Below, piece after piece: positions 28,564 through 35,376 of a DNA stretch of 64,000 bases. This stretch comes from Brevundimonas fontaquae (GTDB taxonomy: Bacteria; Pseudomonadota; Alphaproteobacteria; Caulobacterales; Caulobacteraceae). How positions within the stretch are numbered: position 1 is the first letter of the stretch; every line of letters begins with the position of its first letter. Location: assembly GCF_017086445.1 (NCBI RefSeq), contig NZ_CP070968.1, positions 1,116,001 through 1,180,000 on the forward strand, given 5' to 3'. The notes under the pieces were generated by a model. It did not search any database, was not told where the DNA came from, and was given only the letters and a program-made list of their open reading frames with translations. A program made the translations under genes and the position numbers.

Positions 28564-29187
28564 CTAGCCGCTGTCTTTGGCCGCTTCCGCTCGCGAGGCC
28601 AACACGTCCAGCACGTCCTGAAACACCATGTTACGGGCATGGAGAAGAACGAGCAGGTGATAGATCAAATCCGCAGCCTCGCTGGCGAGTTCCTCGTCCG
28701 GGCCGGCGACGCCGGCCAGAGCGGTCTCCACGCCCTCCTCGCCGACCTTCTGGGCGATGCGTTTGGGCCCCTGTGCGATCAGTCGGGCGGTCCAGCTTTC
28801 GGACGGATCGGCGGCGGCCCGTTCGGCGATGGTCCGTTCCAGCCGGGCGATCCGACCCAGGCCCGGCGCGTCGGCCTCTGCGAAACAGCTCGTCCGGTTC
28901 AGGTGGCAAGCGTTTCCGACCGGCCTGACGCCCAACACGATGGCGTCGGCGTCGCAGTCGGCCGTGATGGAAACGACGTGAAGCCGGTCGCCCGAGGTCT
29001 CGCCCTTTCTCCACCGCCCTCCGCGCGAGCGCGAGAAGAAGGTGGCCTCGCCGGATGCGATCGTCTCGTCCAGCGCCGCGCGATCCATATAGGCCAGGGT
29101 CAGGACCTGCAGCGTGGCGGCGTCCTGCACCACGACGGGGACCAATCCGGCGCCCTTGGCAAAGTCGATGGTGTTCGGGTCGATCAT
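28564..29187 (-). CDS. hisIE: Bifunctional phosphoribosyl-AMP cyclohydrolase / PR-ATP diphosphatase
   Basis: HisIE performs steps 2 and 3 of histidine synthesis. The 207-residue protein joins an N-terminal HisI domain (MDRAALDETIASGEATFFSR, zinc-binding ITADCDADAIV with the NACHLNRTSCF block) to a C-terminal HisE domain (GPKRIAQKVGEEGVETALA, ASEAADLIYHLLVLL). In many alphaproteobacteria these are separate genes, so the fusion is noteworthy. The start is ATG 29187 with AGGA 9 nt upstream. It is last in the his operon, after a palindromic repeat of 161 bp. Confidence 0.94.
   Translation of the reverse strand: MIDPNTIDFAKGAGLVPVVVQDAATLQVLTLAYMDRAALDETIASGEATFFSRSRGGRWRKGETSGDRLHVVSITADCDADAIVLGVRPVGNACHLNRTSCFAEADAPGLGRIARLERTIAERAAADPSESWTARLIAQGPKRIAQKVGEEGVETALAGVAGPDEELASEAADLIYHLLVLLHARNMVFQDVLDVLASRAEAAKDSG

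Positions 29188-29359: not shown

Positions 29360-29361
<2 letters not shown>
29201..29361. repeat. Palindromic intergenic repeat, copy 2
   Basis: This 161-bp element has ends GATCCTCC (29201) and GGAGGATC (29361), and inner blocks GAAGCGGGGGAGGGGGACCG and CGGTCCCCCTCCCCC that pair with each other. It separates hisF and hisIE. Its right end overlaps the hisF stop codon: the TGA of hisF (29362-29360) is read into the TGATCCTCC of the repeat. It is closest to copy 1 at 12233. Confidence 0.85.
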
Positions 29362-30123
<762 letters not shown>

Positions 30124-30127
<4 letters not shown>

Positions 30128-30861
30128 ATCGTACGGGCCGCTGCGATCGCCTCGGGCAGGGTGAAGCAGTTCTCGTAAAGCGCGCGTCCGACGATGGCAC
30201 CGTGACAGCCCAGCGCCTTGACCGCCGCGATGTCGTCCAGCGAGGAAACGCCGCCCGAGGCCTGCAACACCAGATCCGGCCGACGGCTGCGGATCTCGGC
30301 TAGCAGGTCCAGGTTCGGCCCGGTCAGGGCGCCGTCACGACCGACATCGGTCACCAGCAGGTGTTTGGCCGTCCCCTTGGGATACCGATCCAGCGCCTCC
30401 CAAAGCGTCATGCCCGAGGACTGGGTCCAGCCCTTCAGCGCCGGGACCGGCACGCCGCCCTCGATCTTGACGTCCAGGGCCAGGGTGATGCGCTCGACGC
30501 CGAAGGTGTCCAACCAGTTGGCCACCGCCTCAGGCTGGGTCACCGCCAGCGATCCGACCACGACGCGCGACACGCCGGCGTCCAGCAGCTTTTTCACATC
30601 GTCGGCGCTGCGCACGCCGCCGCCGGACTGAACCTTGACGTCGATGGCCTGGGTCAGCTCACCGATCAAAGCATGCTGACGCGCCTCGCCCGCCTCGGCT
30701 CCGTCCAGATCGACGATGTGAATCCACTCCGCGCCCTCGGCCGCGAAGGTCGTCAGGCGGGCGGCCGGCTGCTGGTCGTAATGCGTCACCTGGGCGAAGT
30801 CGCCGTGCATGAGGCGCACACAGACGCCGTCCTTCAGGTCGATGGCGGGGTAGATCAGCAT
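30124..30861 (-). CDS. hisA: ProFAR isomerase HisA
   Basis: HisA opens the ribose of ProFAR to give PRFAR, step 4 of histidine synthesis. The 245-residue half-barrel-repeat protein has the catalytic Asp8 in [12 protein letters not shown], the mate Asp in [14 protein letters not shown], and the phosphate loop [13 protein letters not shown]. The start is ATG 30861, overlapping hisH by 7 bp; its own stop overlaps hisF by 4 bp. Confidence 0.97.
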
Positions 30862-31457
30862 GACAGGCCCAGGAAGTTCTTGAGGATGGTCGCCCCGGCC
30901 TCGGCCGAGCGTTCGGGGTGGAACTGGCAGCCCCAGCGGTTGGCCGATCGAACCACAGCCGGGACGACGCCGCCATAGTCGGCGCGCGCCAGGGTCGCCG
31001 GTCCGTCGCGACAGACGAAGCCGTGGACGAAATAGGCATAGGCGCCGTCGGCAACGCCCTCCAGCAAGGGGTCGTCGCGGTCGCGCGTCAACCGGCTCCA
31101 GCCCATGTGCGGCACCGGCAGATCGCCCGCAGGCTTCAGCCGGGTCACCGCGCCGGGAATGAGACCCAGCAGATCGACGCCGTCGCCCTCGTCGCTCGAT
31201 CCGAACAGCAGTTGCTGACCCAGGCAGACACCCAGCAGGGGGCGTGGGAAGGCGCGGATCGCCGCGATCAGACCCAGGTCCGACAGGCGCTTCATGGCGT
31301 ATCCGGCCGCGCCGACGCCGGGCAGAATGACCCGTTCAGCCTCGGCGATCACGGTCGGATCGTCGGTCAGGCGCACGGTCGCGCCGAGCCGCTCCAGTGC
31401 GAACTGGACCGAGGCGACATTGCCGGCGCCGTAGGCGATGACGGCGACCTCGGTCAC
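30855..31457 (-). CDS. hisH: Imidazole glycerol phosphate synthase, glutaminase subunit HisH
   Basis: HisH releases ammonia from glutamine and passes it to HisF. The 200-residue class I amidotransferase has nucleophile Cys78 (LLGVCLGQQLLF) and the catalytic His and Glu in WGCQFHPERS. The oxyanion region ILPGVGAAG is also present. It starts at GTG 31457, overlapping the hisB stop by 4 bp (GTGA). Confidence 0.96.
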   Translation of the reverse strand: MTEVAVIAYGAGNVASVQFALERLGATVRLTDDPTVIAEAERVILPGVGAAGYAMKRLSDLGLIAAIRAFPRPLLGVCLGQQLLFGSSDEGDGVDLLGLIPGAVTRLKPAGDLPVPHMGWSRLTRDRDDPLLEGVADGAYAYFVHGFVCRDGPATLARADYGGVVPAVVRSANRWGCQFHPERSAEAGATILKNFLGLSC

Positions 31458-32890
31458 AGAACACCTTTGGTGGACGGCACGGCGTCGCCCTCGACGCGGA
31501 TGGCCTGGCGCAGGGCGCGGCCGAAGGCCTTGTAGACGGCTTCGGTCTTGTGGTGGTCGTCCTGGCCCGTGACCTTGATGTGGACGGCCGCGCCCATGGC
31601 CTCGGCCAGCGACCGGAAGACGTGGGCGGTCAGGTCGGTGCGGTAGTCGCCGATGAAGGGCGTCTCGAACGCCCCCTCGAACAGTGGATAGGGGCGGCCG
31701 GACAGGTCGATGGAGACCGTCGCATTGGCCTCGTCCATCGGCAGGACGAAGCCGTAGCGGGCGATGCCCTTGCGCTCGCCCAGCGCCTGTTTCAACGCTT
31801 GCCCCAGGGCGATGGCGCTGTCCTCGATCGTGTGGTGCGGATCGGTGTGCAGGTCGCCTTCGCATTGCAGACGCAGCGAGAAGCCGCCGTGGGCCGCGAT
31901 CTGCTCCAACATGTGATCGAAGAAGCCGACGCCGGTCTCGATCTTCACCGGACCGGGCGCATCCAGATCGACGGCGCAGACGATGCGGGTTTCCTTGGTG
32001 TCGCGCACCGCCTGACCAACGCGCGCCGGGCGGCGCTTGGCGGGCGTCAGGCCGAAGGCGGCGAGCAGCCGGTCGTTGACCTCGGACTTGATCGAGATCG
32101 GCAGGCGCAGACGCTCGCCGGACAGATCGGCCTCGACGCCGTAAGCCTTAAGCCCTGCCAGAGCGGCGGCAGGCTCCTCGGGGCGGGCCATGATGATGGG
32201 ACCGACGCCCGGTTCGACGGGCATCTGGCGACCCAGTTCGCGCACGACCCGTTCGCGCTCGCGCCGGACCGAGGCGATCCGCTCGGCGGTCTCGATCATC
32301 CGCGACGGATCGAGCGCCTGCATCGCCAGCCGCACCAGCGGTTCGGGCAGGGCGTAGGGTTCCAGCACCGACGCCAGACGCGCCAGGGTCTGGGCTTGGG
32401 CGATCGCCGCGCCGACCCGGGCGCCGGCTAAGCCATAGGCCAGGGACAGGCTGCGCAACACAATCAGGTTCGGCTGATCGGCGACGACGGTCACGGCCGA
32501 GACGCTGTCGGAGAACTCGATCAGTCCTTCGTCCACCACCAGCAGGGCGGGGGCGACGCGGGCAGCCATTTCGCCGACGGCTTCGGGCGAGCCCAGGGCG
32601 CGGATGACGACGATATTTTTCTCTGGGGCCGTTTCGCCCTTGGCCGGATAGATGGCGGCGAGACTGTCATAGGGTTCGGCCTTCGGGGCCTCGACCGATC
32701 CCCCGTCGCGAGCGGCGAGGCGCCAGGCCAGTTCCAGCCCGTGGGTCAGGCCGCGCACCGGCAGCACCTGTTCGGCAGGCACGCCATAGACGGCGGCCAT
32801 GCGTGCGGCGAGGGCGGAGGCGTCGCCGGGATAGCGATCCAGACCTTCGCCGCCGGAAACCAGCGGCGGATAAGGAGCGGACACGGTCAT
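31454..32890 (-). CDS. hisB: HisB fused to a HisC-like domain lacking the PLP lysine
   Basis: This 478-residue protein has two parts. Residues about 295-478 are a full imidazoleglycerol-phosphate dehydratase: FFDHMLEQIAAHGG, HTDPHHTIEDSAIALG and DDHHKTEAVYKAFGRAL carry the metal-binding His/Glu residues. Residues about 1-282 resemble HisC aminotransferase (LLVVDEGLIEF, LRSLSLAYGLAGARVG), but the invariant Schiff-base Lys of RTLSKAFGLAG is Leu150, the NPNNPTG loop is absent, and about 60-70 residues are missing. So this domain is probably inactive as an aminotransferase. No internal start separates the halves. ATG 32890 overlaps hisD by 4 bp. A working HisC must be elsewhere. Confidence 0.93.
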   Translation of the reverse strand: MTVSAPYPPLVSGGEGLDRYPGDASALAARMAAVYGVPAEQVLPVRGLTHGLELAWRLAARDGGSVEAPKAEPYDSLAAIYPAKGETAPEKNIVVIRALGSPEAVGEMAARVAPALLVVDEGLIEFSDSVSAVTVVADQPNLIVLRSLSLAYGLAGARVGAAIAQAQTLARLASVLEPYALPEPLVRLAMQALDPSRMIETAERIASVRRERERVVRELGRQMPVEPGVGPIIMARPEEPAAALAGLKAYGVEADLSGERLRLPISIKSEVNDRLLAAFGLTPAKRRPARVGQAVRDTKETRIVCAVDLDAPGPVKIETGVGFFDHMLEQIAAHGGFSLRLQCEGDLHTDPHHTIEDSAIALGQALKQALGERKGIARYGFVLPMDEANATVSIDLSGRPYPLFEGAFETPFIGDYRTDLTAHVFRSLAEAMGAAVHIKVTGQDDHHKTEAVYKAFGRALRQAIRVEGDAVPSTKGVL

Positions 32891-34197
32891 CCTTCGGCCC
32901 TCAGATCGGCGGCGCGGGCGTGGGCTTCCAGCCCCTCCATCCGGGCCAGACGGGCGGCGATAGGGGCAAGCTGACGGGCCCCGGCCTCGGTCACCAACTG
33001 GACCGACATGGTGGTCATGAAGCTGGCGGTGGTGACGCCGCCCAGGGTGCGAGCGCCGCCGTCGGTCGGCAGGACGTGGCTGGGACCGGCGGCATAATCC
33101 CCCAGCGTCTCGGCGGCGAACCGGCCGACGAACACGGCCCCGGCGGCCTTGATCGAATCGACCAGCGGCTCGGGATCGTCGATCTGGATCGCCAGGTGTT
33201 CGGGGCCATAGAGGTTGGCGACTTCTGCGGCCGCGTCGAGGTCGCGCACCAGGATGGCGCGGGCCTCGTTCAGAGAGGCGCGGGCGATGGCTTCGCGGGG
33301 CAGGGTTGCGACCTGAACCTCCACCTCGCTCAGGATGTAGTCGATGGTGGCGCGGCTGGTGGAGACCAGCAGAACCTGCGCATCCGCATCGTGCTCGGCC
33401 TGGCTGAGCAGGTCGGCGGCGGCGATCTCGGGCGCGGCGTCGCGATCGACGATGACCATCAACTCCGACGGGCCGGCCGGCATGTCGACGGCGGGACCGC
33501 CTGGCAGGGCGGAGGCCTGCTTCTTGGCCTCGGCCACATAGGCGTTGCCGGGTCCGAACAGCTTGTCACAGGCCGGAATGACCCCGTCTTCCAGTTCGAC
33601 GCCGAAGGTCAGGGCGGCGATGGCCTGGGCGCCGCCCATCAGCCAGATGGCGTCCAGTTCCGCCTCTGCGGCGGCCAGGATCATGGCGGGGTGGATGCCG
33701 CCCTCCTTGTTCGGCGGCGTGACGGCGACGCGCTGGCCCACGCCCGCGACGCCGGCCGGAATGGCCAGCATCAGCAGCGAAGAAAACAGCGGCGCGGTGC
33801 CGCCCGGAATATAGAGGCCGGCCGAGGCGATGGGGCGCCAGGCCAGTTTGGACCGCACGCCAGGCGTCGTCTCGACGAAGGGTGTGTCCTCGGGCCGGGT
33901 CGCCTGGTGGAAAACGCGCACATTGTCGGACGCCATGCGCAGGGCGCGCACGTCGCCGGGCGGCAGGGCGTTGCGCGCATCGGCGACGGCCTCGGGCGTG
34001 ATGGCGATGCGACGGGGCGGCGCCTTGTCCAGCTTCAGGCACCAGTCGGTCACGGCCGCGCCGCCGCGCTGGCGCACGTCGTCCAGGATGGTGCGCACGA
34101 CCTCGGTCACGTCGCCGGCGGTGCGTTGGGCGGGGCGGGCCAGGGCGGCCGTCTTGCCGGCCGCGTCGAGGGAAGACCAGTCGATGCGCTTCATCAC
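32887..34197 (-). CDS. hisD: Histidinol dehydrogenase
   Basis: HisD oxidises histidinol to histidine with 2 NAD+, the last two steps. The 436-residue protein has family blocks YIPGGTAPLFSSLLMLAIPA, the NAD/substrate loop DMPAGPSELMVIVD, zinc-binding SQAEHDADAQVLLVS, the catalytic pair in YGPEHLAIQ, and GPSHVLPTDGGAR. The ATG starts at 34197 or 34194 (two in tandem). It overlaps hisG and hisB by 4 bp each. Confidence 0.97.
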   Translation of the reverse strand: MMKRIDWSSLDAAGKTAALARPAQRTAGDVTEVVRTILDDVRQRGGAAVTDWCLKLDKAPPRRIAITPEAVADARNALPPGDVRALRMASDNVRVFHQATRPEDTPFVETTPGVRSKLAWRPIASAGLYIPGGTAPLFSSLLMLAIPAGVAGVGQRVAVTPPNKEGGIHPAMILAAAEAELDAIWLMGGAQAIAALTFGVELEDGVIPACDKLFGPGNAYVAEAKKQASALPGGPAVDMPAGPSELMVIVDRDAAPEIAAADLLSQAEHDADAQVLLVSTSRATIDYILSEVEVQVATLPREAIARASLNEARAILVRDLDAAAEVANLYGPEHLAIQIDDPEPLVDSIKAAGAVFVGRFAAETLGDYAAGPSHVLPTDGGARTLGGVTTASFMTTMSVQLVTEAGARQLAPIAARLARMEGLEAHARAADLRAEG

Positions 34198-35075
34198 ATC
34201 ATCTTCTCGATCGGCAGGACCAGGATGGCCGAGGCGCCGGCGGCCTTCAGCTTTTCGAGCGTCTCCCAGAAAACGGCTTCCTGGCAGACGGCGTGGACGG
34301 CGACCGCGTCGTCGCGACCCATCAGGGGCATGACCGTGGGCGAGCCGGCGCCGGGCAGGATGGCGGTGATCTCGTCCAGGGCCGAGCGCGGGGCGTTCAG
34401 CATGACGTATTTGGCGCCTTGCGAGGACACGACGCCCGCCATCCGCTCGATGACGCTGTCCAACAGCTGCTGCAAGGCGGGTTCAGGCGCGACGGGCGAT
34501 TGAATCAGCACCGCCTGGCTTTCCAGAACCGTATCCTTGGCCCCCAGGCCGTTGGCCTCCAGCGTCGCGCCGGTCGAGACCAGGTCGCAGATGGCGGCGG
34601 CCAGTTTCAGCCGGGGCGCGACCTCGACGGCCCCGCGCATGACCACGATGTCGGCCTTGACCCCGCGTTCGTCGAGGAAGCGGCGCAGGATCTTGGGATA
34701 GGAGGTGGCGATGCGCAGACCGTCCAGCGAGGCCGGACCGTCGTAGGCCAGCGTCGGAGGCGTGGCGATCTTCAGCGTGCAGCGACCGAAGCCCAGCGGC
34801 ATGACGATCGAGGCGTTCGGCCCGCCGTTGCGGCCTTCCTCCAGCACGTTCTCGCCGACGATGCCCAGGTCGCAAACGCCGTCCGCCACGAAGGTCGGGA
34901 TGTCGTCGTCGCGGACGCGCAGCAGGTCGATCGGATAGTTCTCGACCCGGTACAGCAGGTCGTTGTGACCCTTGACCCATTTAAGGCCCGCGTCGCGGAT
35001 CAGGTCGAGGCTGCGGTCGGCCAGACGGCCGGATTTCTGGACGGCGATGCGAAGCCGGCCCTGCACGGTGCTCAT
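34194..35075 (-). CDS. hisG: ATP phosphoribosyltransferase (long form)
   Basis: HisG starts histidine synthesis by joining ATP and PRPP and is feedback-inhibited by histidine. At 293 residues it is the long hexameric type, with a C-terminal regulatory ACT-like domain (GSPTVMPLMGRDDAVAVHAV). The PRPP loop is AICDLVSTGATLEANGL. No separate hisZ is needed. The start is ATG 35075, 10 bp after the yerC stop, so the TrpR-like regulator and hisG share a transcript. Confidence 0.96.
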   Translation of the reverse strand: MSTVQGRLRIAVQKSGRLADRSLDLIRDAGLKWVKGHNDLLYRVENYPIDLLRVRDDDIPTFVADGVCDLGIVGENVLEEGRNGGPNASIVMPLGFGRCTLKIATPPTLAYDGPASLDGLRIATSYPKILRRFLDERGVKADIVVMRGAVEVAPRLKLAAAICDLVSTGATLEANGLGAKDTVLESQAVLIQSPVAPEPALQQLLDSVIERMAGVVSSQGAKYVMLNAPRSALDEITAILPGAGSPTVMPLMGRDDAVAVHAVCQEAVFWETLEKLKAAGASAILVLPIEKMM

Positions 35076-35085
35076 ATTCGGATAC

Positions 35086-35376
35086 TCAGTTCTTGTTCTT
35101 CAGGCGGTCCAGGGCGAGGCGATAGCCCTGATGCGGCATGTCTTTCAGATAGCGGGCGACGCGAACGACTGTGGTGGGGCTGGCATGGGCCTCTGCGGCG
35201 ATCTCGCGATAGGATTTGCCGCCGGCGTCGAGCAGGCGCGCGACCTGCCAGCGCTCGGAGAAGGCGCGTAGTTCCGCAGGCGTGCAAAGATCGGCCAGAA
35301 AGGCGTCGATCTCGGCGCGCGTCTGCATCGACAACAGGGCGTCATGCAGGTCGTCACGGGCGGGCGGGGTCGTCAT
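35086..35376 (-). CDS. yerC: YerC/TrpR-family regulator (probable his repressor)
   Basis: This 96-residue protein is of the YerC/YecD TrpR-related family: the helix-turn-helix lies in TPAELRAFSERWQVARLLDA, KSYREIAAEAHASPTTVVRV and ARYLKDMPHQGYRLAL. From memory, YerC homologues in Gram-positive bacteria have been predicted to repress histidine genes; here it heads the his operon with a palindrome across its promoter, which supports the same role. The start is ATG 35376; the promoter -10 (CATAGT on the minus strand) would put the transcript start at or very near this ATG, so it may be leaderless. Confidence 0.88.
   Translation of the reverse strand: MTTPPARDDLHDALLSMQTRAEIDAFLADLCTPAELRAFSERWQVARLLDAGGKSYREIAAEAHASPTTVVRVARYLKDMPHQGYRLALDRLKNKN

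Follow-up and report, generated by a model that had tools for sequence, protein, structure and literature searches.

Extra N-terminal domains on HisB, the imidazoleglycerol-phosphate dehydratase (IGPD) of histidine synthesis, have been described before. According to a 2021 paper (PMC8305728), they occur in HisNB of Enterobacteria, whose HisN is an active phosphatase of the DDDD type, and in HisB of Balneolota, whose N-terminal domain is described as unlike HisN and of unidentified kind. Other fusions join the histidinol-phosphate aminotransferase HisC to HisB; these active HisC-HisB proteins occur in Sphingomonas relatives, Parvularcula and Marinicaulis and are named automatically in databases as 'histidinol-phosphate aminotransferase/imidazoleglycerol-phosphate dehydratase'. 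Here we describe a gene with the domain order of the active fusions in a 64,000-nucleotide stretch of Brevundimonas fontaquae (the window; contig NZ_CP070968.1, positions 1,116,001 to 1,180,000). As in HisNB and the Balneolota protein, HisB carries an additional N-terminal domain, but unlike HisN the HisC half is dead, having lost the lysine that binds pyridoxal phosphate (PLP). Among the openly licensed papers listed by our searches, none dealt in its title or abstract beginning with fused HisC-HisB, active or dead, and a term search for hisC in a 2007 fusion paper (PMC1963479) gave no occurrence. The protein belongs with the pseudoenzyme domains known from fused biosynthetic enzymes. From sequence comparison we think it fairly likely that the protein descends from an active HisC-HisB enzyme, and that its HisC half was retired as redundant while the fold was kept for HisB.

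The gene starts with ATG and runs unbroken in a single frame, HisC then HisB, inside a his operon, according to the open reading frame list and domain profiles. Its parts, and three active-site codons discussed below, are as follows.

31454..32890, minus strand: entire gene (478 aa), HisB preceded by a lysine-less HisC-like domain (open reading frame and domain profiles)
32039..32890, minus strand: HisC-derived domain, residues 1-284
31454..32026, minus strand: HisB (imidazoleglycerol-phosphate dehydratase) domain, residues 289-478 plus stop (profile match)
32441..32443, minus strand: codon 150, CTG for Leu, where HisC has the PLP lysine (alignment)
32531..32533, minus strand: codon 120 (Asp), equivalent of Asp184 (alignment)
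32417..32419, minus strand: codon 158 (Arg), corresponding to the Arg that contacts the PLP phosphate, kept in Brevundimonas but not everywhere (alignment)

The IGPD domain is complete, with PF00475 matching residues 319-460 (5.1e-59) over profile positions 1-144 of 144. Both HHTIED and DDHHKTEA, the His/Glu metal-site motifs of HisB, were found, and H352, H353, E356, H446, H447 and E450 are invariant in an alignment of 60 sequences. The N half is predicted by AlphaFold to have an aminotransferase fold, and Aminotran_1_2 matches its residues 106-221 (3.8e-14). Unlike stand-alone HisC (TIGR01141), the copy in its own genome included, this domain lacks the lysine, is fused to HisB and falls under the family cut-off (98.7 bits against 276.55, model positions 165-280). 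The central claim of the first-pass annotation, a HisC-like domain with Leu150 in place of the PLP lysine joined to a full HisB in one frame, is therefore upheld.

Positions of E. coli HisC were located on the alignment via their motifs in the intact fusion L049. E. coli numbering is used for Y55, N157, D184, Y187, S213, K214 (the PLP lysine), R222, R322 and R335, where N157 is the asparagine of NPNNPTG and R322 the substrate-side Arg; Asp120 corresponds to the Asp pairing with the PLP ring nitrogen and Arg158 to the Arg in contact with the PLP phosphate. Against L049, 74 residues of the N half are missing, 32 of them at the N-terminus; the loss had been put at about 60-70 residues at first pass. 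The protein has gaps at N157 and R322 and Leu for Tyr187, while equivalents of Asp184, Ser213, Arg222, Tyr55 and Arg335 are retained. The reported loss of the NPNNPTG loop also stands, with the asparagine of NNPTG deleted and DEG.IEF and GARVG still present. Among 120 listed homologues the lysine position is Leu in 118, Arg in one (P0009) and part of a deleted segment in another (P0066), with no Lys in any, and the N157 and R322 columns are gapped in all 120. An aligned lysine elsewhere had been named as the finding that would restore PLP binding, and the alignment shows no lysine that substitutes for the missing residue.

Three protein searches (the best 120 of 786, 7226 and 7118 hits) gave 355 fused proteins, figures that describe the matches listed and are not counts over nature. 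Lysine is absent from 231 of these, 230 of them shortened to an N half of 228-320 residues, and present in 124, where the N half measures 333-370 residues and the NPNNPTG asparagine is found in 122; the Brevundimonas protein has none of these three features of the active form. P0127 is dead yet full-size, with an N half of 353 residues in which Tyr, Asp and Ala replace the lysine, N157 and R322, respectively, and comes from a single contig. The lysine-less fusions listed belong mostly to Brevundimonas, Asticcacaulis and related Caulobacteraceae, and have Leu, Tyr, Phe, Gly, Val, Ile, Trp, His, Pro or Arg at the lysine position, mostly hydrophobic residues or Gly. Since the open frame and the lysine loss recur in relatives, sequencing error or a pseudogene was ruled out.

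Fusion as such had been thought unusual, but lysine-bearing HisC-HisB proteins are common in Sphingomonas relatives and also present in several genomes of the same order. A search with the fusion of G040 as query returned full-length HisC-HisB fusions (best 120 of 7226 hits), 119 of 120 with the lysine, and the named active fusions come from Parvularcula, Marinicaulis, Allosphingosinicella, Sphingosinicella, Sphingomonas and one unclassified Pseudomonadota bacterium. Given these full-length, lysine-bearing fusions in relatives, an active bifunctional enzyme would have come first and its HisC half would then have been retired. In the same-order loci fetched, active fusions lie in the same compact his operon. 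HisC and HisB domains share one frame in 7 of 80 listed loci, most of those listed being the separate hisC and hisB of other bacteria. L086 (Gemmatimonadales) and L131 (Rikenella) each have a single-frame HisC-HisB with the lysine, possibly independent fusions.

In the HisB tree, dead and active fusions lie together on one side of a 100/100 branch that splits them from 10 stand-alone HisBs. Concatenated products of hisD, hisH, hisA and hisF likewise place 24 fused and 9 stand-alone loci on either side of a 100/100 branch, hisD not having been found in the stand-alone loci. Since the fusions split from stand-alone loci in both the HisB and neighbour-gene trees, one operon lineage carries the fusion, and the alignments and trees establish the relation of the dead protein to the active one. 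Losses within Caulobacteraceae may number one or more. The dead label needs five changes on the HisB tree, two forced by starred branches, and three on the whole-protein tree, all forced by starred branches. With the lysine column removed, the whole-protein tree unites Brevundimonas, G068 and Asticcacaulis in one dead clade (100/99) and rejects a single clade of all dead forms (approximately unbiased, AU, p 0.0035), though this tree contains the relaxed N half and one very long branch (L059). On the neighbour-gene tree one dead clade of Brevundimonas, G068 and Asticcacaulis is not rejected (AU 0.194). G138, placed in Brevundimonas, carries a different, intact, lysine-bearing fusion; it sits weakly with Brevundimonas in the neighbour-gene tree (83/88), and its whole fusion groups with Sphingomonas relatives in the whole-protein tree (90/81). 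It may have kept the ancestral enzyme or gained its fusion.

A search for an intact hisC elsewhere had been suggested, and the genome (3.3 Mb, single contig) has one at C1:910881-911927, above the cut-off at 294.5 bits. In a family search of 44 chosen genomes, all 44 had at least one HisC over the cut-off, and a stand-alone HisC was present in all 22 dead-fusion genomes of that set. Seven genomes carry an active fusion, four (G040, G051, G055 and G059) without a further HisC and three (G138, G039 and G047) with both. A review reports that some HisC enzymes double as aromatic aminotransferases (PMC9309667). Stand-alone HisC may serve the aromatic pathway and histidine alike, and this double service would make the fused HisC half redundant.

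The course we propose begins with adjacent hisC and hisB in a compact operon (hisG-D-C-B-H-A-F-IE), which probably fused into an active bifunctional enzyme. With a second HisC in the cell, the fused HisC would have become redundant and could have shed the PLP lysine together with some 70 residues from the N-terminal arm and active-site loops. The aminotransferase fold would have been retained since HisB grew dependent on it, in all likelihood to fold, to stay soluble or to assemble its oligomer, leaving HisB to perform the dehydratase step and stand-alone HisC the transamination.

The dead half is conserved, and its role is probably structural. We calculated the ratio of nonsynonymous to synonymous change (dN/dS) by Nei-Gojobori for 35 of 561 pairs, those within divergence limits, which share sequences and are not independent. 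The comparison of the two halves proposed at first pass gave medians of 0.165 for the HisC-derived half and 0.074 for HisB, the former lying between hisD (0.105) and hisH (0.209), and the dead half stayed below 0.47 in all 35 pairs. Two close Asticcacaulis pairs gave 0.022 and 0.026, and more distant pairs up to 0.46. In 30-codon windows of the dead half pN/pS ranged from 0.14 to 0.38, with the minimum at residues 91-210, around the former cofactor site. Across 90 Brevundimonas sequences (P0001-P0060, including the Arg case, and rows under 470 aa were left out; P0066 was below the length limit) the length of the dead half is nearly constant, and 27% of N-half positions reach 98% conservation or more, against 65% in HisB. 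Forty of these N-half positions hold the same residue as the active fusions (n = 125, all of 540 aa or longer and without P0127), and 15 are fixed to another residue, including Leu150 (90 of 90). These values indicate purifying selection on the dead half, which is relaxed but real.

Several observations weigh against a structural role. At the same HisB distances, the ratio of N-half to HisB distance falls from 4.9 to 2.0 in Brevundimonas, spans 2.3-4.5 in Asticcacaulis and falls from 2.6 to 1.7 in active fusions, and at matched HisB distance the change in the dead half of Brevundimonas is about 1.2 to 1.9 times that in an active half. This faster change relative to HisB implies that constraint on the dead half is relaxed. 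The fusions of G068 (414 aa, some 225 of them in the N half) and G043 (N half about 186 residues from the chosen start) have shrunk further, suggesting that HisB can do with less. Pfam found no aminotransferase match in a 318-aa stretch of G043, where the stretches tested for the two shrunken fusions were partial (354 and 318 aa) and did not begin at the first possible start. Together with the varied residues at the lysine position, the relaxed rate and strong shortening would suit a passive remnant, under no selection itself, whose frame precedes HisB and which erodes slowly by in-frame deletion; mere need to stay foldable could by itself yield the constraint measured on the dead half. We nonetheless regard a passive remnant as unlikely, given the dN/dS values in every close pair and in the two Asticcacaulis pairs, the near-constant length and the 15 positions fixed unlike the active fusions.

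It is also possible that the old site still binds PLP, phosphate or histidinol-phosphate, and so tunes HisB or passes product on, much as the first-pass annotation proposed in suggesting that the domain holds histidinol-phosphate or channels product. D120, S149 and R158 are kept in all 90 Brevundimonas sequences, R262 in 89 and Y20 (the Y55 equivalent) in 88, and residues 91-210, the most constrained of the N half, would fit this as well. The Asp120 equivalent is retained in 230 of 230 shortened dead fusions while the remaining site decays. Against this, Asticcacaulis-type dead fusions have the Y55 equivalent in 0 of 63 and the R335 equivalent in 1 of 63, the R322 equivalent is found in none of the 230, and 47 other dead fusions keep the R222 equivalent in 24 and the S213 equivalent in 33. 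Special retention of PLP-site residues in Brevundimonas was not upheld either, with 5 of 7 alignable site residues kept against a background of 27 of 55 positions invariant in active fusions, not a clear excess. Since PLP-site residues are kept in Brevundimonas and many are lost elsewhere, a structural or assembly role is favoured over ligand binding or channelling, which we consider quite unlikely. The first-pass interpretation is supported in part, and the scaffold role that it also proposed is plausible.

HisC enzymes are dimers in which Y55 acts across the interface, and the dead half could form heterodimers with stand-alone HisC and tether it to HisB. The Y55 equivalent in most Brevundimonas sequences and the stand-alone HisC in every dead-fusion genome searched are consistent with such a platform, but the N-terminal arm is deleted, the Asticcacaulis-type proteins lack the tyrosine, and genomes without HisB also have stand-alone HisC, making recruitment improbable. 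There is similarly a slim chance that the dead half, as a repurposed subunit, pairs with a stand-alone, possibly broad-specificity HisC and docks it on the HisB oligomer for direct hand-over of imidazole-acetol phosphate; if true, histidine synthesis would be coupled to an aromatic-pathway aminotransferase. Finally, lysine-free PLP or pyridoxamine phosphate enzymes exist and several PLP-contact residues persist in Brevundimonas, but it is highly improbable that the domain still works as an aminotransferase or as some other PLP enzyme, through another lysine or a lysine-free mechanism, when Brevundimonas has lost the lysine, the NPNNPTG asparagine, Y187 and R322, no substitute lysine aligns, and the lysine position in dead proteins is mostly hydrophobic or Gly.

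If the HisC half was indeed retired and its fold kept for HisB, these proteins form a graded series from intact bifunctional enzyme through dead full-length and dead shortened forms to a near-vanished remnant, in which activity is lost and the domain stays under selection. They offer a testable case, in a simple pathway, of the general question of whether a fused domain can become structurally indispensable irrespective of catalysis. The series also matters for annotation. NCBI labels the dead form HisB, some JGI records name it aminotransferase/dehydratase, and histidine synthesis in Brevundimonas and Asticcacaulis should depend on stand-alone HisC.

Breakage or absence of the fusion in all close relatives would have suggested a decaying domain, but in a first draw of Brevundimonas genomes (n = 37) a full-length match was found in 32, a match in pieces in three (G007, G027 and G030) and none in two. 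Breakage in G007 was dismissed, as the frame change falls where its scaffold has a run of N. A second draw, which overlapped the first, took in 199 genomes of the family; 40 of its 45 Brevundimonas had the dead fusion at 71-100% identity, one (G138) its lysine-bearing fusion and four no match, and all 24 Asticcacaulis genomes (g23) had a fusion match. Among the matches listed, those of other genera of the family were confined, or almost so, to the HisB part, except in G068 (g19). None of ten genomes without a fusion match had IGPD in a search for it, and HisD was also missing in eight. Four Brevundimonas genomes of 100% completeness (G015, G130, G207 and G239) have no HisB or HisD match and each a stand-alone HisC over the cut-off; they have apparently lost the his pathway and would be histidine auxotrophs. 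Assembly gaps may explain G175 and G023, which have no IGPD yet keep HisD.

The fusion lies in a compact minus-strand operon, with the following neighbours in gene order.

35089..35376, minus strand: TrpR-like gene, PF01371, directly upstream of hisG
34194..35075, minus strand: hisG
32887..34197, minus strand: hisD, overlapping the fusion start by 4 bases
30855..31457, minus strand: hisH, overlapping the fusion end by 4 bases
30124..30861, minus strand: hisA
29360..30127, minus strand: hisF
28564..29187, minus strand: hisIE

The TrpR-like regulator gene before hisG is a possible regulator of the his operon. The surroundings of stand-alone hisC were compared in G000, G138, G130 and G122 (Asticcacaulis), and a gene of one family precedes it in all four. 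The G122 copy has a chorismate mutase CM_2 domain; the copies in G000, G138 and G130 gave no CM_2 match and are homologous to the rest of the G122 copy. The G000 gene (G000:C1:910129-910815; L156:4130-4816, plus strand), outside the window, is a homologue of the Asticcacaulis chorismate-mutase fusion (L159:4595-5500), and may be another instance in which a catalytic half was lost and its partner stayed. G068, whose fusion is strongly shortened, has an extra full-length HisC (L155:4067-5161, plus strand) with a 4-base overlap onto the end of hisIE; it looks as though the operon had acquired a hisC of its own again.
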